64,000 nucleotides of DNA from a virus. This document shows, piece after piece, positions 19,038 through 64,000 of the stretch. The position numbers were made by a program, and so were the translations under genes. How positions within the stretch are numbered: the stretch's first letter is position 1; every line of letters begins with the position of its first letter. The stretch covers positions 37,798 through 101,797 of IMG/VR virus record IMGVR_UViG_3300043788_000131; one strand, 5' to 3'. The notes under the pieces were generated by a model. It did not search any database, had not been told where the DNA came from, and worked only from the letters and a program-made list of their open reading frames with translations.

Positions 19038-19061
19038 CGAAATGGGAAGCGGGCGTTCTTT

Positions 19062-19589: not shown

Positions 19590-19620
19590 GATTGTCCCTT
19601 TGCAGATCGCCGGCCTGGGA

Positions 19621-20700: not shown

Positions 20701-20703
20701 TTC

Positions 20704-21168: not shown

Positions 21169-21170
21169 CG

Positions 21171-21500: not shown

Positions 21501-21529
21501 CGCTGCCAAACCTGAGTTTTAGGTGTTTG

Positions 21530-22345: not shown

Positions 22346-22370
22346 AACAAGCCCCGCGATGTAAGAGAGA

Positions 22371-24044: not shown

Positions 24045-25411
24045 AGGTTTTCCAGCGCGAGTTTCACGTTTGCGATGACGCTGTCCCAATCGCCGAGCGC
24101 GGGCTGACGGAAGACCTTCATCGAGGAGTACCAGATCGTTTCGTTGTCCTCGCGCATCCACGGCCAGTAGCCGTTGAAGCGCACGAGGTTCCAAACAGAC
24201 TTGCCGAGCGCGCCGGCGAGGTGCGCGACCGCGGTGTCGACCGTGATGACCAGATCGAGGTTCTTGATGAACTGCGCAGTGTCGTGCAGGTCGTCGATCA
24301 ACTCGACAAAGTTGGCGATCGGCATATCGCGCGGGATGTCCGCCTTCGGCACCTGCAGCGAGACGAAGGTGACGCCCTTGATGCCCATGAGTGGGCGGAG
24401 CATTTCCAGCGGAATCGACTTGGCGCTGGCAGAGGCCTCGGTCTCAGGCTGTAAAGGGCGGCGCCCACTCGACCAGCACAGGCCGACGCGCAAGCGCTCG
24501 GGCAGCGCCGCCAGCCGCTTAGCAAACTCGTCGGGCTGGTCGCCGTATCTCGGCTGCGTCGTAAGATAGGGGAAGGGCCGAATGTCGGCCGGCCCCATGC
24601 CAAGCAGTCGCGGCACGTCGAGCAGCGGGCACGAAAAGTCGATTGCCGCAGGGTCTTTGTACTGGTCGCCGCTGGCAAGGACATCGCTGCTGAATGACGC
24701 CTCGGCAAGCCGCTTTGCGGTTGGCCTCACTTCGAGGATAATGCGGGCGAAGGGGTAGCGCTTCTGGACATCGTCAACGAAACGCAGCGCCATGATCTCA
24801 TCGCCGTATCCCTGCTCGGAGAAGAGCAGGATCTGCCTGTCGTCGAGGTCTTGGCCCTCCCAAGGCTTGAAGGTTCGGAACGGGCGAGGCGGGAACGGCG
24901 TGTCGAACCAGCGCCAGTGGTAGTTTTCGAACCCCTCTCTCCAGCGGCCAAGCGCGAGGTAGATCACCCCCAGCTTGACGCGGGCATCCTGGTTATGAGG
25001 CTCGATCTCAAGCGCGGCCTCGAACTCCTTCGCTGCCGCATCAAGCTCCATGGTGTGGGCGAACATCCCCCCACAGAGAATGTGCGGCGTAGCGGTGTTC
25101 GCGAGTTCGAGCGCACGCTGGAACGACAGCCGCGCCGATTCCCACATGCCGTTTTCGGCGAAGGCATAGCCGCGATTCGACCAGACGTCTGGCTGGTCCT
25201 CGCGGATCGAAAGCGAGCGGTCGAAGTAAACCAGGGCGTCGAAGAACCGGCGCTCCTTGAGCAGGCAGATGCCGCGGACATGCCACGCCTCTGCGAGCTC
25301 GGGTTTCACCCGAAGCGCCTGGACGCATAGGTCGCCAGCCCGTTCGAAGGCACCCGCCTTCAACGCGCTGACCGCCAACTCCAGGATCTGGTCCCCCCGC
25401 CATGTGACCAT
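24041..25411 (-). CDS. TPR protein with GT9-like glycosyltransferase domain
   Basis: 456 residues. Residues 1-170 contain at least four TPR-like helical repeats (AWHVRGICLLKERRFFDALV, VWSNRGYAFAENGMWESARL, VKLGVIYLALGRWREGFENY). The rest resembles heptosyltransferase-type GT-B enzymes: a sensor segment ILLFSEQGYGDEIMALRFV and a C-terminal LVITVDTAVAHLAGALGKS starting at residue 387. Such proteins transfer sugars to glycans or proteins. It shares architecture with the gene at 27616-29187. Confidence 0.8.
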   Translation of the reverse strand: MVTWRGDQILELAVSALKAGAFERAGDLCVQALRVKPELAEAWHVRGICLLKERRFFDALVYFDRSLSIREDQPDVWSNRGYAFAENGMWESARLSFQRALELANTATPHILCGGMFAHTMELDAAAKEFEAALEIEPHNQDARVKLGVIYLALGRWREGFENYHWRWFDTPFPPRPFRTFKPWEGQDLDDRQILLFSEQGYGDEIMALRFVDDVQKRYPFARIILEVRPTAKRLAEASFSSDVLASGDQYKDPAAIDFSCPLLDVPRLLGMGPADIRPFPYLTTQPRYGDQPDEFAKRLAALPERLRVGLCWSSGRRPLQPETEASASAKSIPLEMLRPLMGIKGVTFVSLQVPKADIPRDMPIANFVELIDDLHDTAQFIKNLDLVITVDTAVAHLAGALGKSVWNLVRFNGYWPWMREDNETIWYSSMKVFRQPALGDWDSVIANVKLALENL

Positions 25412-25473
25412 GGCGGGAGGGTTACCAGTGGGCCACTTAGCAGCCGGTTAACGCTCCGGCGGCCTGTGAGCCC

Positions 25474-25941
25474 TTATTCCATGAAGGTGATCTGGGTCGC
25501 GATCGAGGTGTTGTAGTTCGCCGAAAGCTGACGGCAGTCGAAGCCCGCCTGGGCGGTCGCCGCGATGATCAGGAATTGCGATTCCTGGGCCGCGATCCAG
25601 CGGGTGGTGCCGCGCTGGTTGAGGCCGAAGTTCATCACCGAGGAGTTCGCGGTAACGACGGGGTCGGTCGTCAGGTTGATGGCGACTACCGCTTGGCAGG
25701 CCGCATCGGCCGGGTCGGTCGGGTTCGGGGTGAACGCGGTGCCGGCGAGGCCGGTCGTGGTCGTGAACCGCGACACGTCAAGCTGGATCTGGGTATCGGT
25801 CGCCACCGGGTTTTGCACGGCGCCGGCGATGACCTCGTACCATTTTGTACGACGCGGGGTGGCCGACTGCCATTGAGCAGCGGAGCCCTTGTAGGACGAC
25901 GACATGGTCGCCTGGAAGGCCGGAATTCCGTAGGTAGCCAT
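25474..25941 (-). CDS. Unknown structural protein
   Basis: 155 residues, ATG at 25941 with GGGAG 7 bp upstream. Starts MATYGIPAFQATMSSSYKGS; the rest is beta-rich and low in charge (NFGLNQRGTTRWIAAQESQF). Ends 60 bp before the TPR-glycosyltransferase and is preceded by a terminator. Looks like a virion protein; family not recognised. Confidence 0.6.
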   Translation of the reverse strand: MATYGIPAFQATMSSSYKGSAAQWQSATPRRTKWYEVIAGAVQNPVATDTQIQLDVSRFTTTTGLAGTAFTPNPTDPADAACQAVVAINLTTDPVVTANSSVMNFGLNQRGTTRWIAAQESQFLIIAATAQAGFDCRQLSANYNTSIATQITFME

Positions 25942-25960
25942 TGGGATACTCCCGAAAACG

Positions 25961-25982
25961 AAAAACCGCCCGGAGGGGCGGC
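25961..25982 (-). terminator. Intrinsic terminator
   Basis: Minus-strand stem CCGCCC / GGGCGG with 4-nt loop and TTTTT, between 26080 and 25941. Confidence 0.85.
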
Positions 25983-26079
25983 TTCTCAGGTCAAGGATGG
26001 CGGGCGACAGCGATTCGCCGCCGCTAGGAAAATCGCAGCGCGGCCATCCGATACGCGCTATGCGTTGAAGATCAGGTCG

Positions 26080-26733
26080 TCACCAATTCCCAAAGCCCGC
26101 AGGCGGCGTGAAGGCGTAAGCTGATTGTCCAAAGTTTGCGATCACGGCCGCACCAGCGCCTGCGATGTCGGAGCCGGCGGCAAGAGCGCCGCTTGGGCCT
26201 CCCAGAGACCCAAAGCTCAAACCACTTGTGTTTGTGGCCGGGTTGGCGGAAGGATTTGCGTTCCAATTTCCGTTATCGACGTTGAACCAAATATCGTTGT
26301 TGCCAAAGTCGACCGCCATCTGGAAAACGGAGGCAAGTGTGCGGCCGGGAAAGGCAAAATTGTTGGGGACACTATTGGCGAAAACGATGTTTCCCGACGA
26401 GGGATACCACCCAACGCTATTGCTATCTATCCCAAGGTAATTGCTGGCGCTGGGAGTGAATGAAGCATTGGCGACGCCGATACCACCAAATGCGCTGACA
26501 AACTTGAACTCCGCGTAGAACTTGCCAGTGGCGGTCTTAAAATTCTTCGCTACTATGGGCGTGTCGCCAGCACTTGAGGTGGTCCATGTGAGGCCACCAT
26601 TTGAGATCACTCCATCAGCGAAATCGCCGTTGAACCAGATGTTGGTGCCACCGGTGCCTGTAGGCGGCACAAATAGGCCCCCCGCATTCTCGAAGTTGCC
26701 GATGAGACGCGCCCGCCTGACAATGAATTGCAT
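26080..26733 (-). CDS. SPRY-like domain protein with IGNFENAGG anchor
   Basis: 217 residues, start MQFIVRRARLIGNFENAGG at 26733. The first 20 residues match those of the next gene upstream, implying a shared attachment module. Residues about 45-217 resemble the SPRY/concanavalin-like domain of phage appendages: FYAEFKFVSAFGGIGVANAS, YLGIDSNSVGWYPSSGNIVF, FQMAVDFGNNDIWFNVDNGN, ending QSAYAFTPPAGFG. Carbohydrate or protein recognition on the virion is likely. Confidence 0.72.
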   Translation of the reverse strand: MQFIVRRARLIGNFENAGGLFVPPTGTGGTNIWFNGDFADGVISNGGLTWTTSSAGDTPIVAKNFKTATGKFYAEFKFVSAFGGIGVANASFTPSASNYLGIDSNSVGWYPSSGNIVFANSVPNNFAFPGRTLASVFQMAVDFGNNDIWFNVDNGNWNANPSANPATNTSGLSFGSLGGPSGALAAGSDIAGAGAAVIANFGQSAYAFTPPAGFGNW

Positions 26734-26734
26734 G

Positions 26735-27415
26735 TCAGCCCGCCTTGAACGACGCAATGACGGCGCTGTAGTCTGTCGCAGTCGTCCATGACGGTGCCCA
26801 AGTAACCGGGGCCGTCGAGTTGACGATCTGATATGACGGCGGTCGGCCGCCTGAACCTGATCCAAGCGGAGTAAAGCCAGCGCCCTCGGTCCAGGTGCCT
26901 AGACCATTGGTGTCATTTATTCCGCAAAAAACAATCTCGTTATTCGATGACAATGCACCAGTAGAAAAGGATGTTGAGGTTACGGCACTTCCATTCCCCG
27001 TGTGATTGGTCTTGTCGAGTCCGCCGTTGGCGCCGGATACTGCTACTGCAGAGATCGACACGCTCTGAGAGCCAGAGAACGTGATAACCGTCCCGACCGG
27101 CATGTGATTGACGTTCAAGCAAGACCAAAGCGTGTCCGCGTAGCTGACGCTGTCTTCTACGGCAAAGACGAAAGTATTGCCCGCATTGTCTGTCACTGTA
27201 GCTGGTAGAAGCGAAACAGACGGCGTAGTAAATGCGCCTATTTCCAGGACCACCAAACTTCCCGCAGGCACATCTCTTGTTGTGGTAAGGGTCGTTACAT
27301 TGTTTGCGCGTGCGGCAAGTAGGAAAGGAGTACCGATAGGGGCTTGCTGAGCGGTCATCCCGCCTGCGTTCTCGAAATTCCCGATGGTGCGGATGCGGCG
27401 GACGACGGATTGCAT
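26735..27415 (-). CDS. Beta-rich adhesin-like protein with IGNFENAGG anchor
   Basis: 226 residues beginning MQSVVRRIRTIGNFENAGG, nearly the same as its downstream neighbour. The remainder is beta-sandwich-like (SLVVLEIGAFTTPSVSLLPA, VITFSGSQSVSISAVAVSGA, ending DYSAVIASFKAG). The stop is one base before the next ATG. Probably another exchangeable receptor-binding protein. Confidence 0.7.
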   Translation of the reverse strand: MQSVVRRIRTIGNFENAGGMTAQQAPIGTPFLLAARANNVTTLTTTRDVPAGSLVVLEIGAFTTPSVSLLPATVTDNAGNTFVFAVEDSVSYADTLWSCLNVNHMPVGTVITFSGSQSVSISAVAVSGANGGLDKTNHTGNGSAVTSTSFSTGALSSNNEIVFCGINDTNGLGTWTEGAGFTPLGSGSGGRPPSYQIVNSTAPVTWAPSWTTATDYSAVIASFKAG

Positions 27416-27430
27416 GCTATAGTCCGCTGA

Positions 27431-27619
27431 ATGGGTGAGCGAGAGAACAAGTGCCCCAAATGCGGCGTGTCATCCTTGGCCCAGGATTGGCAATACATTC
27501 GCATTGATTGCGACGTGTGCGGCGACCACCGAGGCGCCCGATGCCCAAAGTGCGCGGAGCCATTCGATTGGGTCTTTGATGATCACGAATTGAGATATTG
27601 GCCGCCGGAGGAGCCCTAG
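27431..27619 (+). CDS. Small zinc-ribbon protein on the opposite strand
   Basis: 62 residues with three CxxC pairs: CPKC (8-11), CDVC (27-30), CPKC (38-41). The regular pattern makes it a credible gene although no strong ribosome site is visible. It is one of the few plus-strand genes in this block, starts 16 bp from the divergent gene at 27415 and its stop overlaps that of the convergent TPR gene. Probably a nucleic-acid- or protein-binding zinc ribbon. Confidence 0.55.
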   Translation: MGERENKCPKCGVSSLAQDWQYIRIDCDVCGDHRGARCPKCAEPFDWVFDDHELRYWPPEEP

Positions 27620-29187
27620 TACCAGAGCGAGAGATCGTGCTTCGCGAGCGCGAGCGACGGCCGCCAATTCCCGATCTCGGATTGCCGGTAGAGGGTGACG
27701 CTCGGATACCAGGGCGAGTCGACGCGCCCGCCGAGTTGCCAGCGCCAGTCGGTCGAGAACTTCGGAATGAAAATCCAGGTCTGGATGCCGAGGCTCGCCG
27801 CCATGTGGGCGACCGAGGTGTCGGCGGTGATGACCAGATCGCAGTGCAGAAGCACGGCAGCGGTGTCAGCGAAGTCGGTCAAATCAAGGAATGTTATCGC
27901 CGGATGCGATAACTTCAGTAACTCCACGTCCTCGGCGTCCTCGGGGCGGACCTGCTGCACCGAGACAAAGTTGACGCCGGGCACATCGAACAGCGTCGCG
28001 AATTCCCGTAGCTTGAGCGACCGGTGGGCGTCGTTCTTGTGCTTGAAGAAGCCCGCCCAGCAAACCGCGACGTCGAGGTTGCCGTCACGGTACACGCGGC
28101 GGCCCCACTCGGCTGTCTTGTCCATCGGTATCTTCGGCACCCATGGCGGCACCGCGCGAATCTTCTCCTCAGTGTCAACGCCCAGGTAGCGCGCGAGCGA
28201 CATTTGCGCGACCCAGCAGTCGAAGGTCTCCTTGATGTCTAGCCCCACGGCTTCCTTGGCGCCGGTCCAGATGATCTTCTCCATCGGCTGCAGGACGCGC
28301 ACGCCCTCGATCTCGACGAGGTGGCGGACGGCGCGGTGGGCAACGAGGAAGATTTCGGCCGGATTTTTCCGCCGTAATTCAGGCAGGAAGCGCATGAACT
28401 GAATGCAATCGCCGACCCCCTGCTCGCAATGGACGACGATGCGCTTCCCTTCAATCGACTCGCCCGGCTTCCACTTGTTGTCGGTCGGCAGCCCGAAGTT
28501 GGCTTGCTGCATGTCCGAGGTGAGCAGCCGCGCTTCGTAGTGCTCCCAGCCCTCCTTGAATTCGCCTGTGAGCAGGTAATTGATGCCCAGATTGTAGTGG
28601 GCGTCGGCGTCATTCAAGCGGCTGACGGATTCGCTTAGCTCCTCGCGGAGCGAGAGCGAGCGCAAAAGCTCCTCGCGGCCCTCAAGATGGCGGCCGAGCC
28701 GCATGAGGACGATGCCGAGGTTATAGCGCGGGAACGGGTCATCCGGCTTGTAGGCGATGCCCTTGCGTAGCGCGTGCTCCGCATCCTTGTAGCGGCCGAG
28801 CCGTTCGAGCGTGTTACCGAGGTTGTTGAAGTGCAGCGCGCGCTCTTCGGTCGGCGCGCCCTGTTTCTCGCCGAGTGCGCACGCCCGTTCGAGGTCAGGG
28901 ACCGCCCTGGCCGGCTGCCCGAGTTGCGAGAGCGTCAGCGCGAAATTGGTCAGCGCCATTGCCTTCTTGGGGTTCGCCTCGCGCGCGCGCCAGAACCACC
29001 AGAATGCTTCGTGCAAGCGCCCGGCCTCGAAGAGCGAGGCGCCCAAGCGATTGACGATGTCCCAATTCTCCGGCTCGTGTTCGAGTATCCCCTTGAACAT
29101 CCCGGCGGCGCCGAGGTGGTTGCCTTGCGCTGCCATCCCGCGGCCGACTTCAAGCGCCTGCGGGATTGTCAGATCCATTTCCCCCAT
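27616..29187 (-). CDS. TPR protein with glycosyltransferase-like C-terminal domain
   Basis: 523 residues from the ATG at 29187 (GGGGGAG 4 bp upstream; a TTG at 29211 is less likely). Residues 1-215 are TPR-like repeats (IVNRLGASLFEAGRLHEAFW, HFNNLGNTLERLGRYKDAEH, PRYNLGIVLMRLGRHLEGRE). The C-terminal half has IVVHCEQGVGDCIQFMRFL and LVITADTSVAHMAASLG from residue 451, the donor-site region of GT9/OGT-like GT-B enzymes. Paralogous in design to 24041-25411 but only distantly similar. Confidence 0.8.
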   Translation of the reverse strand: MGEMDLTIPQALEVGRGMAAQGNHLGAAGMFKGILEHEPENWDIVNRLGASLFEAGRLHEAFWWFWRAREANPKKAMALTNFALTLSQLGQPARAVPDLERACALGEKQGAPTEERALHFNNLGNTLERLGRYKDAEHALRKGIAYKPDDPFPRYNLGIVLMRLGRHLEGREELLRSLSLREELSESVSRLNDADAHYNLGINYLLTGEFKEGWEHYEARLLTSDMQQANFGLPTDNKWKPGESIEGKRIVVHCEQGVGDCIQFMRFLPELRRKNPAEIFLVAHRAVRHLVEIEGVRVLQPMEKIIWTGAKEAVGLDIKETFDCWVAQMSLARYLGVDTEEKIRAVPPWVPKIPMDKTAEWGRRVYRDGNLDVAVCWAGFFKHKNDAHRSLKLREFATLFDVPGVNFVSVQQVRPEDAEDVELLKLSHPAITFLDLTDFADTAAVLLHCDLVITADTSVAHMAASLGIQTWIFIPKFSTDWRWQLGGRVDSPWYPSVTLYRQSEIGNWRPSLALAKHDLSLWY

Positions 29188-29350
29188 CGTCTCCCCCGTC
29201 CTCCTCTGCAAGTTTCGCCATCAGCAAAGCGACGGCGGCTTCGTCATCAGCACGCCGTCGCCGTTCGCGAGCTCGTTCGAGCAGCGCGGCGTAATCGGTG
29301 GCGTTCGGAATTTCGTAGGTGTCGAAGGTCGGCAGGCTCAGCCCGGTCAT
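29150..29350 (-). CDS. Small charged protein coupled to the portal gene
   Basis: 66 residues. ATG at 29350 overlaps the portal stop (ATGA). It ends 38 bp inside the TPR-glycosyltransferase gene. Helical charged centre (ALLERARERRRRADDEAAVA) and an acidic Gly-rich tail. Coupling to the portal suggests a head-assembly accessory; no family recognised. Confidence 0.55.
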   Translation of the reverse strand: MTGLSLPTFDTYEIPNATDYAALLERARERRRRADDEAAVALLMAKLAEEDGGDDGGNGSDNPAGA

Positions 29351-32091
29351 TCTTCCTGGAAACCGGCCACATCGCCGCGCTCGTTACGCAGCACGCGATG
29401 GGTACGCTTGCGCGCCAGATGCGCGATCATCGCCTCCATGCGGGCCATGCGGTCCTCGTTGCCGCCGCTCGGTTGATGGACCGGGGCGAGCGACATGCCG
29501 GGAGGCAGGACGGCGTGTGAAATCTTGCCGTCCGAACCGCGCACGAATTTGACTTGCGGCGAGGGCGCAGGGGGCGAACCCGATGGGCTCGCGCGGGCTG
29601 CACCACCACGGGGGGGCTGGGGGGAAGCGGCGCGGCCGGTCCCTGCACCCTCGCCTTGCTGTTGGGCCTGTTGCTCGTCGAACGTAGCCGATCTCTCCGC
29701 CATTTGCCGAGCGTGCGCGTCATTTTCTGCAGCGCGGCCAGCCTCGTTCTCCGCCATTTGCCGGCCGTGCACATCCTGCTCCACCTGATGGTGGTGTGCG
29801 CGCAGATCCAAGCCGTGGCGGAAGCCATGGTCGGCCGCTGAAAGCACCGTCTCGTGGTGCTTCATAGCGTGCTCGTGGCCCATCGCGCGGGCGTCCTGCT
29901 GGTGCCCGAGGATCATGTCGACCACGTCGGCTTCGAGCTCGCGCTTGCCGAGGGCAATCTTCGCCACGGCCGCGAGGCCTGTCAGCATCGAGGCTTGGCC
30001 CTGCTTTTTGTCCTTCTCGATCTTCGCCTGAATCGCCTGCATCTGCAGGTCGCCCATTGGATTGGGCTGGGCGTTGTCGTCTTTGATGAAGAAGCGATCG
30101 CCGCCGTCCTTGTAGCCGACAGCGCCGAACACCTCTTCGATGATGGCGTCGATGTTGAGCTTGCGCTTACCGCTCTGAAAATCCGGCGATTGCATCAGGA
30201 TCGGTGCGACGGTCTGCGCCGCGGTCGCGAATTTCGCCAGCCGCTGCTGCGGATCACCGGCACCAAGGCCGACGCTCACCCGCATCGTGATCTGCTGTTC
30301 GAGGAGATTGTCGTCGATCTGGTCGATGCCGAACTTCTCGAATAGCTGCGCGCGCTGCCCGCACAGCCCGAGCACCGTGGCGTCGTTCTCGTAATACTGC
30401 TCAAGGCGCATAAGCTGGGTCAGCGACGGCTCAGCCCATGTCATCAGCCATACACGGATGTCGAATTCTTGCACCGCATTGGCGGCGCCGGCAGCGAGCT
30501 TGAGGCCGCCGAGCGTCTTGCCGAGGGCCTGATTGTTCTCGACGTTGCCATAGTTCTGGACACCGGCGAGATCGTCCATTTCGATGTTGAGCTCACGGTT
30601 CATGACCGTGGAGTCCTGGGGCAACTGCGGCGCCTGCTCCCAGGTCACGTCGGCCGGGTCGTCGACCATGATGGAGGAGCCGAACGAACGGCGGCGGACC
30701 TGATCGAGGTCGATGCGCTTGCCGCGCTTGACCTTCGAGATCGGCATGACGTTCTGTTTGATGGCGTCAAGCTGCAGATTGCGCAGGTCGTTTACCTCGA
30801 CCTGCAACGGCTGCCAGGACTCGACCGGCGCCATCGGGAAGATGCGGTGCGATTCGAGTGCGCCGTACCCAAGAGCTAAGGGTCGTTCACCAAACTGTTC
30901 GGGATAGGCCTCGCTCGTGGGCTTGGGATCGGTCAAAAAGAACTGATCGCCGATCGTCCAAAACTGCCAATCCTCGCCCCCGATTCTCATAAACACTTCG
31001 TAGACCCAAATCACCTGGAACTCGGTCCCGGTCTGGGTCTCGTCGTAGCGGTCGAGGCCCACCTCACGCGCGCGGCGGATGGCCTCCATGTCCTGCTTGC
31101 CGAGCACGGAGGCGCCGCGAAGCTGCGCTTCGGTCAGATCGTGCCAGGGATTTACCGGCGAATCCTGCTTCTGGCGGATTTCGTCATACGTCATCGGGTA
31201 CTTGAGGATGATGAATGACGCCGTCTGCACCGGGTTGCGCCAGTCGGCGCCCGAGTGAATGACGAAGTTCTCCGGCGGGAAGTTCAGGATCTCGGGGCGG
31301 TCAACGGCGACCTCATAGACCGTGCGGACCTTGCGGACGTGCGCGCCGTCCTGGCCGGCTTCGAGGTAGTGCTCGTCTTTGATCTTGCGGTATTCGAGCT
31401 TCCAGAACTGCTTGGTGAGGCACAGTCCGGTGAGAAGCGCGTCCTGGCGCGCGCCCATCGCCACCAGGAACCAGGGGATGCCAGCCTTGCCCGAGGTCGT
31501 ATCGGTGCGGTAGTTGACCAATTCCTCCATGACAGAGGCAGCCGCGCGCTGCTTCGGGTCGCTTTCGTTGCCCGGCAGACAGGTGACGGCGTCGATCGAA
31601 TTAAAGAGCGAAGCAGAGACCGCGGCCATGTCCTTGCGGACCGCGGCGCGTGTCTTCGGGACAAACAAACGAGAGCGATTGCGCCACTCGGGCTTGGTGT
31701 ACTTACTTCCAACGAAATGCTCGTTGTGAAAGGCGCGAAGCGATTGCGACCATGCCCGCCGGTTGACCTGGGCGGTGTAAAGCTGGGCCTGCTGCTCGGC
31801 GATGCGCACGAGGCCGAGGAAATCCACATCCGGGATGTCTTGCTGCAATTCCGGGGGGTTTTCGGCGTCGTCCGCGGCTTGGTTTTCGAGCTCGTCCGGT
31901 TCCGGTTGCTGGTCGACGCCGGCCATGCCGCGCCATCTATTGTCGCGAACAAACCCGCCGTTGCCGGTTTTGCCGGCAAAGCGGCCGCGCGCGCCATCGT
32001 CTGGCGGAGTGCCGGGCGAGGAGAATGAGACCGGCAGCCCGCGCGTGCCGCGAAGCGGGTCCTCGCCGGGCGGCGTGGTGCGAAGCGCCAT
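29347..32091 (-). CDS. Portal protein
   Basis: 914 residues, long for a portal. The N-terminal 80 residues are disordered and Pro/Gly/Asp-rich. Then come helical AQLYTAQVNRRAWSQSLRAF, WRNRSRLFVPKTRAAVRKDM and VMEELVNYRTD. A central beta domain (VYEVAVDRPEILNFPPENFV) leads to the stem-crown region around 430-600 (VNDLRNLQLDAIKQNVMPIS). The C-terminal 200 residues are Gln/His/Ala-rich coiled sequence. This matches large portals of podovirus-like phages. Neighbouring genes are small virion proteins. Confidence 0.8.
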   Translation of the reverse strand: MALRTTPPGEDPLRGTRGLPVSFSSPGTPPDDGARGRFAGKTGNGGFVRDNRWRGMAGVDQQPEPDELENQAADDAENPPELQQDIPDVDFLGLVRIAEQQAQLYTAQVNRRAWSQSLRAFHNEHFVGSKYTKPEWRNRSRLFVPKTRAAVRKDMAAVSASLFNSIDAVTCLPGNESDPKQRAAASVMEELVNYRTDTTSGKAGIPWFLVAMGARQDALLTGLCLTKQFWKLEYRKIKDEHYLEAGQDGAHVRKVRTVYEVAVDRPEILNFPPENFVIHSGADWRNPVQTASFIILKYPMTYDEIRQKQDSPVNPWHDLTEAQLRGASVLGKQDMEAIRRAREVGLDRYDETQTGTEFQVIWVYEVFMRIGGEDWQFWTIGDQFFLTDPKPTSEAYPEQFGERPLALGYGALESHRIFPMAPVESWQPLQVEVNDLRNLQLDAIKQNVMPISKVKRGKRIDLDQVRRRSFGSSIMVDDPADVTWEQAPQLPQDSTVMNRELNIEMDDLAGVQNYGNVENNQALGKTLGGLKLAAGAANAVQEFDIRVWLMTWAEPSLTQLMRLEQYYENDATVLGLCGQRAQLFEKFGIDQIDDNLLEQQITMRVSVGLGAGDPQQRLAKFATAAQTVAPILMQSPDFQSGKRKLNIDAIIEEVFGAVGYKDGGDRFFIKDDNAQPNPMGDLQMQAIQAKIEKDKKQGQASMLTGLAAVAKIALGKRELEADVVDMILGHQQDARAMGHEHAMKHHETVLSAADHGFRHGLDLRAHHHQVEQDVHGRQMAENEAGRAAENDAHARQMAERSATFDEQQAQQQGEGAGTGRAASPQPPRGGAARASPSGSPPAPSPQVKFVRGSDGKISHAVLPPGMSLAPVHQPSGGNEDRMARMEAMIAHLARKRTHRVLRNERGDVAGFQEE

Positions 32092-32094
32092 CGG

Positions 32095-32403
32095 TTAGTC
32101 CGTGATGTTGTAGAAGCCCGTAATGACGCCGCTCGACCCCGTGCCCAGCGTGACCGCCGTCACCTGCAGATCAAATTGCCAGACGCCGATCGGGCATGAG
32201 CCCATGGTGACCGTGGTGCCATCGAGCATCGTGAAAGCAATGGTGGTCGCGACCGTGATGACGACGATGATCTTGGTCGGGATGGGCGTGTTGTATGTCG
32301 TTCCCGACGTCATCACGCCGATGGTGCCGTGCTTGGGCGAGACCGGGCGGCGGTCGGCCATCTGGCTTTGGACGAGAGGGGTCGTCACAGCAACAGTAGC
32401 CAT
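32095..32403 (-). CDS. Small virion-type protein
   Basis: 102 residues with AGGAG 8 bp before the ATG at 32403. Beta-rich, Thr/Val-rich sequence (PTKIIVVITVATTIAFTMLD). Ends 3 bp before the portal start. Likely a head-associated structural protein. Confidence 0.6.
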   Translation of the reverse strand: MATVAVTTPLVQSQMADRRPVSPKHGTIGVMTSGTTYNTPIPTKIIVVITVATTIAFTMLDGTTVTMGSCPIGVWQFDLQVTAVTLGTGSSGVITGFYNITD

Positions 32404-32412
32404 TGCGCGCTC

Positions 32413-32865
32413 CTATTCGGGGACTTTGAGCCAGGGCCTCACGAGGGCCGAATGTTTCTCGCGGGCGTCGAGGAATTCGCCGAGATTGAAGCGCTGGCGG
32501 CTCATGCCATAGCGTTCGAGCAACTCGCCGCCGGCACGCATCAGGAGGCCTTCGTCGAGCGGATCAGTCTTGAGGTTGATTGCCCACCAGCGATTGATCC
32601 CCATGAGGATCGGGATGTTGAAATAGGCCATGCCCTGCTGGCCGTCGTGCTTGGTGCGCCAAGTGACGCCGGGATAGTGCTTCTGCAGCACGCCCATCAT
32701 CCATTTGGCGCAGGCCATGTCCTGGGCGGCGTACTTGTCCTCGATGTGCTCGCCATCGGGACCGAATGGCGCCTCGTATTGGGTGCGCACGACGATGTCG
32801 TGGCCGGTTCCAAACACGCTTTTCGGCACCACCTGCTCATGCAAGGTGACAGCATCATCGGCCAT
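32413..32865 (-). CDS. Unknown phage protein upstream of the portal
   Basis: 150 residues starting MADDAVTLHEQVVPKS. Compact mixed sequence with MACAKWMMGVLQKHYPGVTW and ERYGMSRQRFNLGEFLDARE. No recognised catalytic motif. It is preceded by a terminator and lies first in the portal transcription unit. Confidence 0.6.
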   Translation of the reverse strand: MADDAVTLHEQVVPKSVFGTGHDIVVRTQYEAPFGPDGEHIEDKYAAQDMACAKWMMGVLQKHYPGVTWRTKHDGQQGMAYFNIPILMGINRWWAINLKTDPLDEGLLMRAGGELLERYGMSRQRFNLGEFLDAREKHSALVRPWLKVPE

Positions 32866-32882
32866 ACGCGGTACTCGAAATG

Positions 32883-32905
32883 AAAAGGCCGCCTTGCGGC
32901 GGCCT
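32883..32905 (-). terminator. Intrinsic terminator
   Basis: Minus-strand stem AGGCCGCC / GGCGGCCT with a 4-nt loop and a TTTT tract, between 32966 and 32865. Confidence 0.8.
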
Positions 32906-32965
32906 CTCTGTTGGGCTTTGCGCCCGATCCGGGCTGTGGTGCCCGGTGTGTTCAGTCAGCGGCGA

Positions 32966-33349
32966 TCAGACAACGTCCGTCTCGTGATAGCGCCATGTGC
33001 CCGTCGCGCCGATGTAGTCGTAGCGGACGCTGGTGTGGGTCGCCATGGCGGCATTGGGTGGGAATACCGACAGCGATACCGTCCCATCGGTCTTATTGAC
33101 CGCTGTGATGATGGCCGCGATTGCCAAGCCCGTGCCGGCGTCCTGATAGAGGACCGGCTGGGTGACCTTGGGGCCAATCGTGCGCGCAACAACCATGTCG
33201 GCACTCGCAAATGATACGGGTTTGAGGCGATGTTTGTGTCGCGATTGCCGATCGGCCACTACCGCGGCCATCATGACCACCAGCAGGGTGAAAAGGATGA
33301 CGAGAGCTAGAGCCCAGATGAGGAGACTATTAGTCGGCTCTGGTCTCAC
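32966..33349 (-). CDS. N-terminally membrane-anchored protein
   Basis: 127 residues. One hydrophobic segment at about 9-31 (LLIWALALVILFTLLVVMMA) precedes a basic stretch and a beta domain (DGTVSLSVFPPNAAMATHTS). The second half resembles the small beta-barrel proteins often found in phage accessory regions. Its ATG at 33349 overlaps the stop of the upstream gene. Function unknown. Confidence 0.6.
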   Translation of the reverse strand: MRPEPTNSLLIWALALVILFTLLVVMMAAVVADRQSRHKHRLKPVSFASADMVVARTIGPKVTQPVLYQDAGTGLAIAAIITAVNKTDGTVSLSVFPPNAAMATHTSVRYDYIGATGTWRYHETDVV

Positions 33350-33510
33350 TTAGTCACCTCTAGCGGCTCCACGACCTCGAAGACGCTGTACGCATCGAGG
33401 GCAGTGTTGACGAGCCACCAAATATCCCCATTGACCATTGTCACACGGACCGTGCCGTCAACGACCTCGGTCGCACTAACGATGTGCTTGGGGTTGATGC
33501 GTGTCGTCAT
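33346..33510 (-). CDS. 54-residue unknown protein
   Basis: Starts MTTRINPKHIVSATEV at 33510, with ATGA overlaps to both neighbours (33507 and 33349). Beta-rich (GTVRVTMVNGDIWWLVNTAL). Part of a chain of four co-translated small genes below the epimerase. Confidence 0.55.
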   Translation of the reverse strand: MTTRINPKHIVSATEVVDGTVRVTMVNGDIWWLVNTALDAYSVFEVVEPLEVTK

Positions 33511-33716
33511 GTGATCTGGTACACTTTGCGACGCCGCCCGTACCAATAGACCGTGAATTTGCCGCTGTGGTCCGCACGTATCAGGTGGCCGTCGCGCCGG
33601 AGCTCGTAGATTCGAGCAGACAGCCGGTAGCAGCGGAACAACGCCAACGCCGTTGGCGCGTCAAGCGGATGACCGCCGTGCATGAGGTAAGCGAGGATTT
33701 TGAGTCTCTGGCTCAT
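33507..33716 (-). CDS. Winged-helix/HTH-type small protein
   Basis: 69 residues from the ATG at 33716, which overlaps the stop of the 34-residue microgene (ATGA). Sequence RLKILAYLMHGGHPLDAPTA ... RIYELRRDGHLIRADHSGKF reads as helix-turn-helix plus wing, as in small phage winged-helix proteins. DNA binding is probable; target unknown. Confidence 0.6.
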   Translation of the reverse strand: MSQRLKILAYLMHGGHPLDAPTALALFRCYRLSARIYELRRDGHLIRADHSGKFTVYWYGRRRKVYQIT

Positions 33717-33817
33717 TTGCACTGCGGCGGCTTGCTCATATACCAAAGGAAGTCGGCCCAACTGCCCTCACCATCCCACCAGAGCTCAAACATTCCCCAA
33801 TGTGAGATCGACCTCAT
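33713..33817 (-). CDS. 34-residue Trp-rich microprotein
   Basis: A tiny frame (starts MRSISHWGMFELWWDG, ends KPPQCK) whose ATG overlaps the epimerase stop (ATGA) and whose stop overlaps the next gene's ATG. Five of 34 residues are Trp. The exact double overlap and amphipathic composition suggest a real gene translated by coupling. Function unknown. Confidence 0.5.
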   Translation of the reverse strand: MRSISHWGMFELWWDGEGSWADFLWYMSKPPQCK

Positions 33818-53500: not shown

Positions 53501-53576
53501 TGGTTGCAGGGGTGGGACTCGAACCCACGACCTTCAGCTTATGAGGCTGACGAGCTAGCCGCTGCTCCACCCTACA
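53501..53576 (-). tRNA. tRNA-Met (CAU), elongator type
   Basis: 76 nt including an encoded CCA (53501-53503). Acceptor TGTAGGG / CCCTGCA, D arm GAGC-AGCGGCTA-GCTC, anticodon stem TCAGC / GCTGA with loop CTCATAA (anticodon CAU) and T arm GTGGG-TTCGAGT-CCCAC. The T1-A72 pair and lack of three G-C pairs next to the loop argue against the initiator. A CAU tRNA could be modified to read AUA (Ile2), which cannot be excluded. Confidence 0.93.
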
Positions 53577-57593: not shown

Positions 57594-58373
57594 TCATCTG
57601 GGTAAGATGAATTCCCGACCCCGGCGCGGCTCACGGACCCCCAGGGCTCGGCGGACATGGCTTGCACAGTACGGCAGCCCATTGACCGTTTGTGCACCGC
57701 AAAAAAGGTAAGCAGGCCTGTCCTGGATCGGCCAGCGGCACTTCTCCTGGCTCAGCCCGAAGAGATCGACCGCGTCGGGCGTCGGCTTCTCGCGCGGGAG
57801 GTCCTTCTTGGCGAAAGCGCCAGCCAAGGCTGGCGGCCGGACCGGGTTGTTGTTGTGGCCGCGCAGATCCGGCCGCGCCACAGAGTAGATCGACACCAAC
57901 TCGGGGCTCGGCACAAACCCCACGATTGCCGCGAAATCTTCTTCGTCTGACTCGGGTTCTGGCTCGGGCGGTGGCGGAGGTGGAGCGGGAGGCGGAGGAG
58001 GCGGCACCCAAGGCGGCTCGGGCATTGTCGCCGGCTCGGGCATTGCCGCGATTACCTCGATCTGCTCAATTCGGTGCGCGAGGCGACGGTTGTGCGCGAG
58101 GCGGCGGCTGGGGGACCAGGGGGTTGATTTCGGGCGAATCATCTTCCGCCCATTCTGAGGGGCCTGCAGCTTGAGGCCATACTTGTGTACCTGCCCGGCG
58201 ACCGCATTGCGGGTCACCGACAGGCCAAGCATCATGATCGTCGTCCTAAACTCCTTGACGATGACCTCGGCAATCTCGCCGCCGGATAGCTCCCTGGTGT
58301 CGACGAGCTCCCGCAGACGCCCGACCATTTCAGGCGTCCATTTCTTTCTCTGATTCGACCCTCTGGGCATCAT
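57594..58373 (-). CDS. GcrA-like transcription regulator
   Basis: 259 residues (start MMPRGSNQRKK; start overlaps the upstream gene by 44 bp). Residues 12-30 (WTPEMVGRLRELVDTRELSG) and LSVTRNAVAGQVHKYGLKL match the N-terminal DNA-binding region of GcrA, a sigma-70 cofactor that acts at GANTC-methylated promoters in alphaproteobacteria. A long Pro/Glu linker (PPWVPPPPPPAPPPPPPEPE) follows. The C-terminus has C212RWPI, FCG, LPYCASH (Cys225, Cys236, His239), as in the sigma-interacting domain. Phage-encoded copies could redirect host transcription. Confidence 0.82.
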   Translation of the reverse strand: MMPRGSNQRKKWTPEMVGRLRELVDTRELSGGEIAEVIVKEFRTTIMMLGLSVTRNAVAGQVHKYGLKLQAPQNGRKMIRPKSTPWSPSRRLAHNRRLAHRIEQIEVIAAMPEPATMPEPPWVPPPPPPAPPPPPPEPEPESDEEDFAAIVGFVPSPELVSIYSVARPDLRGHNNNPVRPPALAGAFAKKDLPREKPTPDAVDLFGLSQEKCRWPIQDRPAYLFCGAQTVNGLPYCASHVRRALGVREPRRGREFILPR

Positions 58374-59037
58374 GGTTCTCTTGTTGTTGGCTCTTCCGCG
58401 CTTCCAAGTCTGCCAGCACCCGCTGGGTATGCTTCCCATCGCCGATTCGATCAACCACTTTCCGGGGAGTTTGCTGAAGGGGGCGATCGGCCTCTACCGG
58501 CGCTTCCAAGATTCCGCGGCACTCTCGCAAAGCCCGCTCGTACTCCCAGGTAAGTCCGCGAACCACCCGATTGACCATATTTTCGAGGGTCTCGCCCTCC
58601 CGCCGATGCTCAAGGGTCTGTCTGATGCGCAGACAAGCTTCACGCACAGCCCAAGGCGGCTGCGCTCCCAGACTTTCCGTAATCTGCGCCACCATGCCGG
58701 TAGCGGTCTCATCATCCATTCCGGCCGGCAGCACGCTGAGAAGCATATCCGGATCAGCCGCCGGCACCGTCGCAACGGCCTGTTCCAGCGCTGCAATCCT
58801 GGTCTTCAACAGCGAGCACTCTTCCTCGGTCAACGAACGCCGAATCGCCTTTACGCTCGTATCGAAATTGCGAAAAGAGACGACGCAAGCGATTTCACGT
58901 TCAGTCGCGCGATTGAAGCGGGGCGGCAAATCCTCCCTCTTCCTGATCGGTATGACTGCTTGCTGCAGCGCGCTTCCGGGCAAGGGCGATACGCATCCTA
59001 ACTGCCCCACCTGCTCCCCGATTTGTTTGAAATCCAT
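58330..59037 (-). CDS. Unknown helical protein
   Basis: 235 residues, ATG at 59037 with AGGAGG. Helical and charged, centred on SLTEEECSLLKTRIAALEQA and EACLRIRQTLEHRREGETLE. The first 137 bp overlap the end of the replication-type gene. Coupling suggests a replication accessory; not recognised. Confidence 0.6.
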   Translation of the reverse strand: MDFKQIGEQVGQLGCVSPLPGSALQQAVIPIRKREDLPPRFNRATEREIACVVSFRNFDTSVKAIRRSLTEEECSLLKTRIAALEQAVATVPAADPDMLLSVLPAGMDDETATGMVAQITESLGAQPPWAVREACLRIRQTLEHRREGETLENMVNRVVRGLTWEYERALRECRGILEAPVEADRPLQQTPRKVVDRIGDGKHTQRVLADLEARKSQQQENHDAQRVESEKEMDA

Positions 59038-59761: not shown

Positions 59762-60397
59762 TCAGCGAGAACGGGCTGGCAACGCCGGTGTTTTGCGGGG
59801 AGAAGGCTCGGGATCTCGATAGAGCCAGTCGATCACAGGACGGCTCCGGCGCTTGCGGCCGGTGTCCCAGATGTACCAAGCGTAGTCCGTCGTCCCGTTG
59901 CCGGTGGGCTTTTGGACGTGGCCCGGCGGCATCGCCGGCCGGGGGCAGATGAAATAGACCCGCACGAGTGGGGTGCTGGCGAGCCAGCGCGATCGCCGGG
60001 TGCCCTGTATCCAATTTGAGGGCAGCAGCAGGGCGACCTTGCCACCCTTCGGGGTGACGAGATCCAAGGCCCGCTCTGCGAAGGCTCTCGCAAGTGCGAA
60101 CGGCGGGTTCGAGACAATGTCCATATCGTGGATCAGGATGCCCCAGGCGAGGAAATCCCTGGTTTTTCCGCAATACTTGCTGCGTTTGACGATGTCGGTG
60201 CCGATGGCATGCAAGCCGTGGAGCCGGGCTGATTGTACGATGCGGCCCGATCCGCAGGCCGGGTCCCAGACCGCGAAGAACCTTTCAGCCTCGAAGAGCC
60301 GGCGGCTCACCCAATCGGGCTCGGTGTACCAGTCGTTCTTCTGCCTGACCCAGAGGTGGCTCTTGCGCTTGCGCAGTGGCCCGCGGTGGCGCTTCAC
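59762..60397 (-). CDS. DNA adenine-type methyltransferase
   Basis: 211 residues from a GTG at 60397 overlapping the upstream stop (GTGA). SAM motif DPACGSG (45-51) and catalytic motif SNPPF (96-100; the D/N/S-PP-Y/F box) are intact; GKVALLLPSNW follows. N6-adenine or N4-cytosine methylation of DNA is expected. A solitary enzyme with no nuclease partner, next to replication genes, fits protection or regulation. Confidence 0.78.
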   Translation of the reverse strand: MKRHRGPLRKRKSHLWVRQKNDWYTEPDWVSRRLFEAERFFAVWDPACGSGRIVQSARLHGLHAIGTDIVKRSKYCGKTRDFLAWGILIHDMDIVSNPPFALARAFAERALDLVTPKGGKVALLLPSNWIQGTRRSRWLASTPLVRVYFICPRPAMPPGHVQKPTGNGTTDYAWYIWDTGRKRRSRPVIDWLYRDPEPSPRKTPALPARSR

Positions 60398-60579
60398 CCT
60401 GTTGCGAGCCCCCGCGGCTTTGGCGGTGGCGCCTCGCGCTCGCCCTGCCAATAGGCGCTGACCTCCCGTTTGTAGGAGGAGAGGCTTTTCTTGAGCTTCG
60501 CCTGCTTGTGCTTAGTGACGCGCTCGTGCCTCCGCGCAAGGTAGCTGCGCACCCTGTTGACCCCGTGGCTCCTGGCCAT
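60394..60579 (-). CDS. 61-residue basic protein
   Basis: MARSHGVNRVRSYLARRHER then VTKHKQAKLKKSLSSYKREV; strongly basic with a Pro/Lys tail. Its stop overlaps the methyltransferase start (GTGA). Nucleic-acid binding from charge; unknown. Confidence 0.55.
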   Translation of the reverse strand: MARSHGVNRVRSYLARRHERVTKHKQAKLKKSLSSYKREVSAYWQGEREAPPPKPRGLATG

Positions 60580-60945: not shown

Positions 60946-61029
60946 CTATAGGTGCTGCGGCCGCGAATAGAGGATCACCAGCACGACCGCCAGTATTCCG
61001 ACGACCATCACCAAATGCGAGGCAAACAT
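60946..61029 (-). CDS. 27-residue single-TM microprotein
   Basis: MFASHLVMVVGILAVVLVIL then YSRPQHL. Its ATG at 61029 overlaps the upstream stop (TGATG). Almost entirely one membrane helix. Confidence 0.45.
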   Translation of the reverse strand: MFASHLVMVVGILAVVLVILYSRPQHL

Positions 61030-61196
61030 CAGTCGTGATCCTTTACTCTTGAGCGCTCATTCGCCCATCGTTTGACCGCCTCCGGTGTCACGCTACCGCC
61101 GCGCGTGGTCTCCCAATGCGTCGGCAGCCAAATGGAGAAGGCGACGAGGCCGACGATGATGCAGACCAGCAACAGTCGGTCGAGCCATAGCCTCAT
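61029..61196 (-). CDS. 55-residue membrane protein
   Basis: MRLWLDRLLLVCIIVGLVAF is one span, followed by a soluble tail (SVTPEAVKRWANERSRVKDH). ATGA overlap with the gene upstream. Function unknown. Confidence 0.55.
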   Translation of the reverse strand: MRLWLDRLLLVCIIVGLVAFSIWLPTHWETTRGGSVTPEAVKRWANERSRVKDHD

Positions 61197-61348
61197 AGCC
61201 ACTTCCACGGCCCCATCATGATACTCCACTGGTGCCGCCAGCAGCGGTCGCATTGCCGGTAGCGGACGTGGTCGCCGACGAAGGTATCGCCCCAGCGATG
61301 GCCGAACACCGCGCAGAGGTGCCGTTTTATAGACCCTGCGCCTTTCAT
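61193..61348 (-). CDS. 51-residue zinc-binding-type protein
   Basis: MKGAGSIKRHLCAVFGHRWG then RYRQCDRCWRHQWSIMMGPW: His/Cys spacing suggests one zinc. ATGA overlap with the HTH gene. Unknown. Confidence 0.55.
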   Translation of the reverse strand: MKGAGSIKRHLCAVFGHRWGDTFVGDHVRYRQCDRCWRHQWSIMMGPWKWL

Positions 61349-61548
61349 GCCGCCGGCCGCTGTTTGGGTTTGTAGCGCTCCATGAACCGCATCACGACGG
61401 CGACAGTGTCGAGTCCTGGCGACCGCCCGCCGCGGCACTCGTAGACAAAGCTGGGGTCGCCCATCGCCCGGCGTCCGAACTCGCGCGCCGACATGCTGTG
61501 GTGCAGCAAGAAGGCTTCGATCTCCGACATGAATTCGGCTCTATTCAT
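61345..61548 (-). CDS. HTH repressor-like protein
   Basis: 67 residues from the ATG at 61548 (other ATGs at 61584 and 61530 are possible). FLLHHSMSAREFGRRAMGDP then VYECRGGRSPGLDTVAVVMR reads as a lambda-repressor-type helix-turn-helix. It is encoded beside the inverted-repeat control region and faces away from the rightward operon, so it is the best candidate to bind those sites. Confidence 0.7.
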   Translation of the reverse strand: MNRAEFMSEIEAFLLHHSMSAREFGRRAMGDPSFVYECRGGRSPGLDTVAVVMRFMERYKPKQRPAA

Positions 61549-61561
61549 GTTGCCGAAAATG

Positions 61562-61577
61562 GCAGGGTTTTCCCTAC
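61562..61577. promoter_or_regulatory. Operator-like site 1
   Basis: GCAGGGTTTTCCCTAC, matching site 2 at 15 of 16 positions in the opposite orientation. It lies between the HTH gene start and the divergent promoter. Confidence 0.6.
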
Positions 61578-61632
61578 GGCGCAAGCCTGCCTGTTGAAAG
61601 GTAAGGACGACTGACGTTAATAAAGTGGATTT

Positions 61633-61648
61633 GTAGGGAAAACCCTAC
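61633..61648. promoter_or_regulatory. Operator-like site 2, perfect palindrome arms
   Basis: GTAGGG-AAAA-CCCTAC, immediately upstream of a TTGACG -35 box. Confidence 0.65.
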
Positions 61649-61676
61649 TTGACGGCTGTAGGCAATTCCCTATTGT
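61649..61676 (+). promoter_or_regulatory. Rightward early promoter candidate
   Basis: TTGACG (61649-61654), 16-bp spacer, TATTGT (61671-61676). It would drive the operon starting at 61751. The -35 box touches site 2 and the -10 box lies in site 3. Confidence 0.6.
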
Positions 61677-61685
61677 TCAATAGGG
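61668..61685. promoter_or_regulatory. Operator-like site 3
   Basis: CCCTATTG-TT-CAATAGGG, an 18-bp inverted repeat overlapping the -10 box. Confidence 0.6.
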
Positions 61686-61750
61686 ACGCCAGAACAAGAA
61701 CCGAAAGCGCAGACCAGCGAAGCGGCCACAGCCCGGAAACGAGAGGAATC

Positions 61751-61948
61751 ATGAATGGAGCAGGCAAAGGCAAGAGGTTCACGGTGGTCGAAAACTCGGG
61801 CTTCGAGGATGAGCGCGACATCCGCACCTTCAAGACTTACGACGCGGCGGTGCGCTGGGCCACGAGATACTACGACGTTGGCGAATCGGAGCGCCTGAAC
61901 GTCCACATCGCCCGCGACACCGCGAGCGGACGGACCTACGACTTCTAG
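61751..61948 (+). CDS. First gene of the rightward operon, unknown
   Basis: 65 residues, ATG at 61751 after GAGAGGA. MNGAGKGKRFTVVENSGFED then RTFKTYDAAVRWATRYYDVG, an alpha/beta small protein type frequent in rhizobial phages. Presumably immediate early. Not recognised. Confidence 0.65.
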   Translation: MNGAGKGKRFTVVENSGFEDERDIRTFKTYDAAVRWATRYYDVGESERLNVHIARDTASGRTYDF

Positions 61949-61958
61949 GAGGGGCAAG

Positions 61959-62165
61959 ATGACCGAGTACACCGTCCACTTCCAGAAGGGGCGCGTCGTT
62001 GGGGCACGCTCCCTGCACATGGTTCACGTCGATGCCGTGACCGTCGCTGCAGCCATCAAAGCAGCCAAGGCGGAGCACGCCACATGGGGGGACAGCGTGG
62101 GCTATCGACTGACCCGCGTCGACCACTTCGACGACGAGACCGGCCGCTTGGTGATCGACCAATGA
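61959..62165 (+). CDS. Unknown 68-residue early protein
   Basis: AGGAGG 6-12 bp before the ATG at 61959. MTEYTVHFQKGRVVGARSLH then VTVAAAIKAAKAEHATWGDS, ending DETGRLVIDQ. The stop overlaps the next ATG (ATGA). Confidence 0.65.
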   Translation: MTEYTVHFQKGRVVGARSLHMVHVDAVTVAAAIKAAKAEHATWGDSVGYRLTRVDHFDDETGRLVIDQ

Positions 62166-62449
62166 GCAGGAAACAACACTTTCAGCGAAACGGCGGCGGC
62201 GTGTTCAGGTGCGAGGTCTGTGATCGCAGCACGCGCCGCGTTGATCAGGGTCACGACAGCAGGCTATGCCCGCAGTGCTGGGACCTCGCTGGGCTCGACA
62301 ACACCGTGAACGACAACGGGCCCACAGAGCCGAGCCTGGGCGACTGGACCACCTACCGCGACGCCTTGCTCGCAGACGCCGTCGCGAAGGGCGGCAATGC
62401 CGAGCAGATCAAGAAGGAGTTCACTTATCTCTGGGGAGGTGGAGCATGA
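62162..62449 (+). CDS. Zinc-ribbon early protein
   Basis: 95 residues: CEVC and CPQC pairs around GGVFRCEVCDRSTRRVDQGH, then helical DALLADAVAKGGNAEQIKKE. Coupled on both sides (ATGA; 62446). Probable zinc-binding regulator. Confidence 0.6.
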   Translation: MSRKQHFQRNGGGVFRCEVCDRSTRRVDQGHDSRLCPQCWDLAGLDNTVNDNGPTEPSLGDWTTYRDALLADAVAKGGNAEQIKKEFTYLWGGGA

Positions 62450-63193: not shown

Positions 63194-63551
63194 ACCTGGG
63201 AGCGGTTCCACCGAGTCGGCCAGCGCAGGGGTCGGCTATCAGAAAGGCGGCCTGCCGGCCGCTCTCAGTTAGTAGGCATTGTGCGGTTCAAAGGCCGTCA
63301 GCCTGCGCACTTATTCAGCGATCCCGGCGGTGAACGTCGGGTTAGCGCGCCCCGGTCCCGGTCACGGTGCGCGGCTTTCCAGAGGACCGGCTAGAGCAGG
63401 GCAAGCGACGGTCGAGCGCAAGCTCGATGTGATGGCGGCCCCAACAACCGGGCACGCACTCACCAACGAACGGGACCGCGTCGTCGGACGGAAACTGTGA
63501 ATGACCTTCGCGGCGCGGTCCTTTTATAACCCGAATTCGAGGAGAAATTGG
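63194..63551. other. 358-bp stretch without a supported gene
   Basis: Weak frames occur on both strands (63279-63500 plus, 63342-63578 minus, and from 63191 plus) but none has a ribosome site or recognisable sequence. GGACCGCG (63473-63480) pairs with CGCGGTCC (63514-63521) followed by TTTT, a possible terminator with a long loop. GCGGCC-TGCC-GGCCGC near 63247 is another small hairpin. Confidence 0.5.
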
Positions 63552-63794
63552 ATGTTTAGACCTTTCACACGGCATCACGATCCGAGCGTGAGAAGCCCGC
63601 AGGCAGACGTGAACTCATGGAATGCCAACGTGGCCGTTGGCGAGAAGGTCACATACCGCAACGACCTCGGCGAGGAGATCCTGACGCGCACCCGCTCGCG
63701 CGCCCAGGTGCTCAGCAATCACACCGCAGTCGTGTGGTTGGATGGCATTACAGGATGCGTTGCGCTCGGTCGCGTCATGTCGGTGGTATCATAG
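63552..63794 (+). CDS. Unknown 80-residue protein
   Basis: ATG at 63552 with GAGGAGAAA 5-13 bp upstream. MFRPFTRHHDPSVRSPQADV then AVGEKVTYRNDLGEEILTRT; beta-rich second half (AVVWLDGITGCVALGRVMSV), barrel-like. Unknown. Confidence 0.6.
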   Translation: MFRPFTRHHDPSVRSPQADVNSWNANVAVGEKVTYRNDLGEEILTRTRSRAQVLSNHTAVVWLDGITGCVALGRVMSVVS

Positions 63795-63805
63795 GAGAGG
63801 CGACG

Positions 63806-63987
63806 ATGCACACCTACAGGAAAGACAAAGTTGTTGGGCACAAAGAAGCCATCTGGACCGTGGGATATTGGGGCATGGTCGGGGATCGCGTAATGTGGGA
63901 GCCGCCGCGGCGATTGCCAAGGGTCACTACACGAAATGTGCCGAGGCCATTCGCGCGTTCAAGATGCCCGTGGAGAACGCGAAATGA
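63806..63987 (+). CDS. Probable frameshifted or overlapping small gene
   Basis: A frame starts at ATG 63806 (AGGAGAGG upstream): MHTYRKDKVVGHKEAIWTVG, then stays open past the window edge with poor coding character after about 63900. In another frame, AAAIAKGHYTKCAEAIRAFK ends at 63987 and its stop overlaps the next ATG (ATGA), which favours it. One gene with an indel near 63895-63910, or two genes, would explain this. Confidence 0.35.
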
Positions 63988-64000
63988 CCGGCTGGAACCT
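63984..64000 (+). CDS. Start of a further gene, cut by the window edge
   Basis: ATG at 63984 overlaps the stop at 63985-63987 (ATGA) and continues MTGWN to the right edge. Too short to identify. Confidence 0.35.

Follow-up and report, generated by a model that had tools for sequence, protein, structure and literature searches.

Is a compact divergent control region in a virus genome, in which inverted repeats surround a promoter and a small helix-turn-helix (HTH) gene is transcribed away from it, a repressor-operator switch, and does it point to a temperate phage? This question is raised by positions 61549-61750 of the window, i.e., the whole stretch of 64,000 nucleotides analyzed here, which corresponds to bases 37798-101797 of a 101,797-base IMG/VR contig. 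In the initial annotation, the region was taken for such a switch, and a temperate or lysogeny-related life style was deduced from it.

Putative operator sites and promoters of the control region

The HTH gene and the elements of the control region are listed below (window positions; O, operator; P_L and P_R, leftward and rightward promoter).

61345..61548, minus strand: gene of the Cro-like HTH protein (67 aa), ATG at 61548 (family profile, tblastn)
61556..61561, minus strand: putative −10 of P_L, CATTTT, 7 nt ahead of the ATG
61562..61577, no strand: O1 (site 1), in the −35/−10 spacer of the putative HTH-gene promoter P_L
61579..61584, minus strand: putative −35 of P_L, TTGCGC, positioned as in relatives (TTGAC/TTGCNN)
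61633..61648, no strand: O2 (site 2), abutting the −35 of P_R
61649..61654, plus strand: −35 of P_R, TTGACG (sigma-70 consensus scan)
61658..61673, no strand: O3 (site 3), within the P_R spacer
61668..61685, no strand: 18-bp inverted repeat, over the −10 and the presumed start of P_R
61671..61676, plus strand: −10 of P_R, TATTGT (sigma-70 consensus scan)

The three inverted repeats of the initial annotation are present, but they are versions of one palindrome. Site 1 has the sequence GCAGGGTTTTCCCTAC (TAGGGAAAACCCTG when read on the minus strand) and is imperfect, with one mismatched arm pair, while the palindrome of site 2, GTAGGGAAAACCCTAC, is perfect. The reported match of the two sites in opposite orientation was reproduced, since O2 and the reverse complement of O1 share 15 of 16 bases. 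Site 3 reads GTAGGCAATTCCCTA at 61658-61672 and GTAGGCAATTCCCTAT when taken as a 16-bp operator. The 18-bp inverted repeat, CCCTATTGTTCAATAGGG, is composed of the right half of O3 and one extra TAGGG half-site. All three palindromes of the TAGGG-N4-CCCTA type and the overlapping fourth half-site lie within 61562-61685, and judged by their letters the repeats are one operator family rather than three independent repeats.

With up to one mismatch, TAGGGN4CCCTA was found three times in 61549-61750, compared to 0.0065 expected from dinucleotide shuffles (0 of 2000 shuffles reached three). A search of the rest of the genome for the 16-bp site had been proposed as a check; at the same tolerance, only four sites were detected in the entire contig, three of them in the control region. 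An exact 16-mer search of IMG/VR yielded 16 matches; most of these were isolated sites in contigs of differing composition and were judged to be near chance level. Among these matches, a homologous HTH gene was noticed beside the site in L013 only, where the identical 16-mer of O2 lies upstream of that gene. The spacing between O2 and O3 is 25 bp compared to 31 bp in the relative L037, and the CCCTA-N8-TAGGG spacing of the 18-bp repeat is also found between the operators of L019. This contig (37% GC) carries four TAGGG-N4-CCCTA sites at an exact spacing of 22 bp (L019:8893-8972) with no obvious gene adjoining. Five and two further sites of this type were seen in unrelated phage contigs (L018:11309-12043 and L017:5192-5448, respectively), spread across stretches between genes in which TTGGATAATTGGATAA-like repeats abound, with no HTH family member seen adjoining. 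A search of the open literature for the TAGGG operator strings gave no paper; one of the other operator strings occurs in three unrelated papers.

The P_R hexamers are separated by a spacer of 16 bp and were the sole sigma-70-like match of the consensus scan in 61300-61800. As annotated initially, the TTGACG follows directly after O2 and the −10 is located inside the 18-bp inverted repeat. A leftward promoter, P_L, had been overlooked and probably exists, with O1 in its spacer. Read leftward, it would consist of TTGCGC (61584-61579) and CATTTT (61561-61556), followed by the ATG at 61548. Both hexamers are weak against the E. coli consensus, and P_L was not returned by the consensus scan. Measured by hand, the distances from the centre of O1 are 13.5 nt to the first base of the P_L −35 and 22.5 nt to the ATG. 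These offsets are the modes of the distribution in the gene family described below, which points to the leftward promoter. A near-leaderless mRNA is predicted for the HTH gene.

The HTH protein and its family

The small HTH gene is indeed transcribed away from the control region. For its 67-aa product, no match to Pfam, PHROG, NCBIfam or PDB was found (two NCBIfam matches were far under the cut-off), and no sequence similarity to solved Cro structures was detectable. With tblastn, a Bradyrhizobium plasmid gene was identified (E 5e-9, 52.7% identity over 55 aa), followed by weaker relatives on a Sphingomonas plasmid and in two phages. A scan of IMG/VR with the window protein alone gave no match.

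Using profile and pattern scans, 45 loci scoring more than 60 bits and then 58 further loci were collected, giving a total of 103. These roughly 100 relatives are mostly located in viral contigs. L013, which encodes another HTH protein of the family, was fetched by its DNA motif. The window protein reaches 94 bits against the family profile A3, of which it is row 1, so that this score locates the gene and gives no independent evidence. By its sequence, the protein is a member of a small Cro-like HTH family that is absent from the database models. Among the ORFs divergent from family members, 33 of the 43 tested match Peptidase S24 (CI-like); the family occupies the Cro position opposite a CI-like repressor, in immunity regions of the prophage type.

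The AF2 model of the window protein has a pLDDT of 87 and contains helices at residues 3-16, 21-29, 34-39 and 46-58. The best Foldseek matches in the PDB include XRE-type proteins, e.g., C.Esp1396I (TM ~0.68), with E-values that are not significant (at least 0.24). The model is thus suggestive of an XRE-like fold, with weak Foldseek E-values. An Aca-type anti-CRISPR-associated regulator was also considered and not adopted; the HTH gene is divergent from, and not downstream in, the operon that it faces, and Aca2 was a weak fold match in Foldseek.

Most family loci show the order TTGAC[GC], palindrome, −10, 6 to 9 nt and ATG of the HTH gene, a near-leaderless arrangement. A free search for palindromes upstream of the family genes was ambiguous because promoters of the GTGTG type hold three half-sites, and it was replaced by a test anchored in the spacer. 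This strict test demands a TTG, a perfect 5/5 palindrome at an offset of 12.5-17.5 and an ATG 30-46 nt on. It was passed by 64 of the 103 loci, compared to 1.16 in shuffles. The palindrome is found ~13.5-15.5 nt from the −35 and ~20-24 nt before the ATG. The window locus fails the strict test because of the one mismatched arm pair in O1, and its offsets are those read by hand.

Recognition helix and operator class

The recognition helix of the window protein contains the motif GDP-SFVYEC. In the family, the operator varies with the residue after the Asp, which the AF2 model places at the start of helix 3: TAGG-N6-CCTA accompanies Pro, TGTG-N6-CACA accompanies Arg and CGGG-N6-CCCG accompanies Trp. 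In the first set, the TAGGN6CCTA operator was present for 13 of 14 Asp-Pro members and 1 of 31 others, the exception being the motif-fetched locus L013. The 58 loci gathered after the rule had been formulated were chosen by protein pattern only, the operator DNA motif being unused in the selection, and for one of the scans (A7) the window protein and proteins of the Pro class served as seeds; the corresponding frequencies were 14 of 17 and 0 of 41. For both sets, this amounts to 27 of 31 Asp-Pro members versus 1 of 72 others, counted among related proteins whose tree is poorly resolved and holds only two independent supported contrasts. The window protein (GDPSFV) belongs to the Asp-Pro class and its own sites are of the TAGGG type, in agreement with the rule. 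Across the loci compared, the operator class is predicted by the residue with which the recognition helix begins.

Flanking operons and gene content of the phage

The genes on both sides of the control region are as follows.

61751..61948, plus strand: first rightward gene, ORF of 65 aa without family
61959..62165, plus strand: second rightward gene, ORF of 68 aa without family
62162..62449, plus strand: third rightward gene, ORF of 96 aa whose Cys pairs resemble a zinc ribbon by eye, without a family match above the cut-off
61029..61253, minus strand: next leftward gene after the HTH gene, ORF of 74 aa without family
59762-60451, leftward, further down: methyltransferase-like gene
57594-58454, leftward, further down: GcrA-like gene (GcrA-like C-terminal domain)

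The rightward operon runs on across the contig junction to the genes of an ERF recombinase and a DUF5131 protein. In the leftward direction, the pairing of GcrA-like and DNA methyltransferase-like proteins is presumably reminiscent of CcrM/GcrA, the cell-cycle circuit found in alphaproteobacterial hosts. Besides these four proteins, the contig encodes a terminase and a portal protein. In addition, it contains 34 tRNA genes, of which 33 form a block outside the window (L021:6355-15295) and one lies at window positions 53501-53576. Outside the window, on the minus strand (contig 17635-33741), a single ORF of 5,368 aa combines ddrB-ParB, inorganic pyrophosphatase and SNF2 helicase domains; this polyvalent giant protein is kept in cousin contigs with 53-66% identity over the aligned part.

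The two ends of the contig overlap, in that bases 1-63 are found again at 101256-101318 and the last 95 bases are identical to bases 185-279. Between these flanks (contig 1-279 and 101256-101797, the latter being window 63459-64000), a differing stretch comprises 121 versus 384 bases. Owing to this overlap, the genome is probably complete, with a circular map and one strain-variable stretch.

The initial annotation mentioned that no integrase is in the window, and this now extends to the entire contig. A profile search of all 101,797 bases gave no match to PF00589 or PF00239 (integrase/resolvase), PF00717 (S24), PF01381 (HTH_3) or PF02195 (ParB), a profile-based result by which a divergent repressor, HTH family or integrase could be missed. 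No divergent CI-like (S24/XRE) repressor was found beside the HTH gene; the divergent gene at 61751-61948 is without family.

Cousin contigs share the terminase and structural genes with this phage. One of them, with a terminase 57% identical, carries a tyrosine integrase, of which no homologue was detected in the contig at E <= 1. Temperate ancestry or kinship of the phage is therefore plausible. In the cousin G001, the operon at the divergent region (L109:11343-11465) begins with a different HTH gene of the HTH_3 type (L109:11466-11693), and a palindrome, ATAATTACGC/GCGGAATTAT, is located near by. G002 has an HTH_3 gene (L114:9184-9573) close to its divergent region (L114:9574-10332), and a tyrosine integrase is encoded downstream. 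Among the terminase relatives, whose records are fragments, no member of the HTH family was found. Since other HTH genes occupy a similar place in the cousins, the regulator slot seems to be kept while the regulator cassette is exchanged at one locus.

Proposed mechanism and alternative explanations

The two parts of the initial interpretation fared differently. The repressor-operator reading is well supported by the promoter architecture of the family and the covariation of residue and operator, both drawn from sequence comparison. The temperate life style was not borne out by the profile search, in which integrase, resolvase, S24, HTH_3 and ParB were all without a match.

We propose, with a probability of roughly three in four, that two divergent early operons are shut off by an autoregulated module of the Cro type, which works without a recognizable CI. 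The HTH protein, presumably as a dimer, would bind the TAGGG-N4-CCCTA palindromes. On O1, inside the P_L spacer, it would repress its own gene and the leftward operon. The stretch covered by O2, O3 and the extra half-site begins shortly before the P_R −35 and extends to approximately +1, and protein bound there would exclude RNA polymerase from the rightward operon with its small genes and the ERF recombinase. Transcription is predicted to start at ~61548 leftward and at 61682-61686 rightward. Early after infection, both promoters would fire, and the rising level of HTH protein would then turn both down. The module would correspond to the Cro side of an immunity region like that of lambda. Because neither CI nor integrase is recognizable, it most likely times early expression instead of choosing lysogeny. 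Against this mechanism stand the P_L hexamers, which are weak by the E. coli consensus, the imperfect palindrome of O1 and an O2-O3 spacing unlike that of relatives.

Alternatively, the HTH protein itself could be the maintenance repressor of a temperate phage with an unrecognized integration system or a plasmid-like prophage state, which we regard as unlikely. Small single-domain repressors exist, P2 C being an example, and several operators over an early promoter would suit such a role, as would the related lineage G002/G003 with its tyrosine integrase and a single XRE gene near the divergent early region; the XRE genes of related contigs indicate single-HTH control regions in this group. 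Against it, a contig with overlapping ends lacks integrase, resolvase and ParB matches, the homologues are found in the place of Cro, with a separate S24 repressor next to them, and the contig has 34 tRNA genes, many tRNA genes being common in lytic phages.

Still less probable is a degenerate immunity region, in which a temperate ancestor lost CI and integrase and the HTH gene and operators persist as a relic or for weak autoregulation. The integrase of the cousin lineage, set beside a contig without integrase and CI, would agree with such a loss, but O2 is perfect, the HTH ORF is intact and the match of protein and operator is kept, whereas a decaying relic should drift; the different HTH gene in a similar position of the cousins also suggests a slot in use. 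That the operators mainly serve another protein, such as a TAGGG-class repressor of the host or a resident prophage, and form an immunity target or hijack point between phages is likewise improbable, for although the same operator class adjoins S24-type/CI-like repressors in unrelated viral contigs (L013, L037, L039), the phage's own HTH protein has the residue class matching TAGGG operators, which is a sufficient explanation.

If the Cro-type shut-off is correct, a Cro half-switch apparently works without CI. The family comparison itself provides partners and an apparently simple recognition code for roughly 100 small regulators of phages, most of them unannotated and missing from the searched libraries, and the many natural protein-operator pairs make the diversification of immunity specificities directly testable. 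Beyond this, a more speculative and rather doubtful scenario may be sketched: a Cro family outside the databases, widespread in prophage-like contigs and with a specificity largely set by the residue at the helix start (Pro: TAGG, Arg: TGTG, Trp: CGGG, others), would have been taken up without CI by a large lytic-like phage as a CI-free timer of early genes. Since some prophages have the same operators, the module could then also mediate interference or cross-immunity among phages.

Comparison with known systems

The arrangement is similar to lambda Cro with OR/OL in that a small HTH protein is combined with palindromic operators overlapping divergent early promoters, with autorepression expected, and in that homologues of the HTH gene are divergent from a CI/S24-type repressor. 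However, CI was sought and not found, so the region is not a lambda-type immunity region. Further differences to lambda are the lack of a recognized integrase, the all-helical model, the operator in the promoter spacer and the orientation, as the HTH gene heads the leftward operon whereas the most heavily covered promoter faces the other way.

The Cro protein of PY54 binds a 16-bp palindrome in the immunity region, and the cI and cro mRNAs are leaderless, as determined by RACE for cro (PMC4488713). The palindrome length and the leaderless cro mRNA of the telomere phages PY54/N15 resemble the 16-bp sites and the near-leaderless mRNA predicted here. PY54 Cro binds only one site, adjacent to cI, and its own promoter is probably not a target (PMC4488713), whereas in this phage three to four sites cover both promoters and no cI is recognizable.

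The restriction-modification controller C.Esp1396I, among the nearest solved folds, is likewise a small HTH protein controlling its own promoter via palindromes; in contrast, the window gene does not, from what was seen, belong to a restriction-modification system, and the Foldseek match is not significant. Finally, phiCbK, a virulent alphaproteobacterial phage, is a precedent for an XRE-type regulator encoded by such a phage; its TgrL differs in that it is similar to XRE proteins of the host and targets the genes of the host (PMC10688885).
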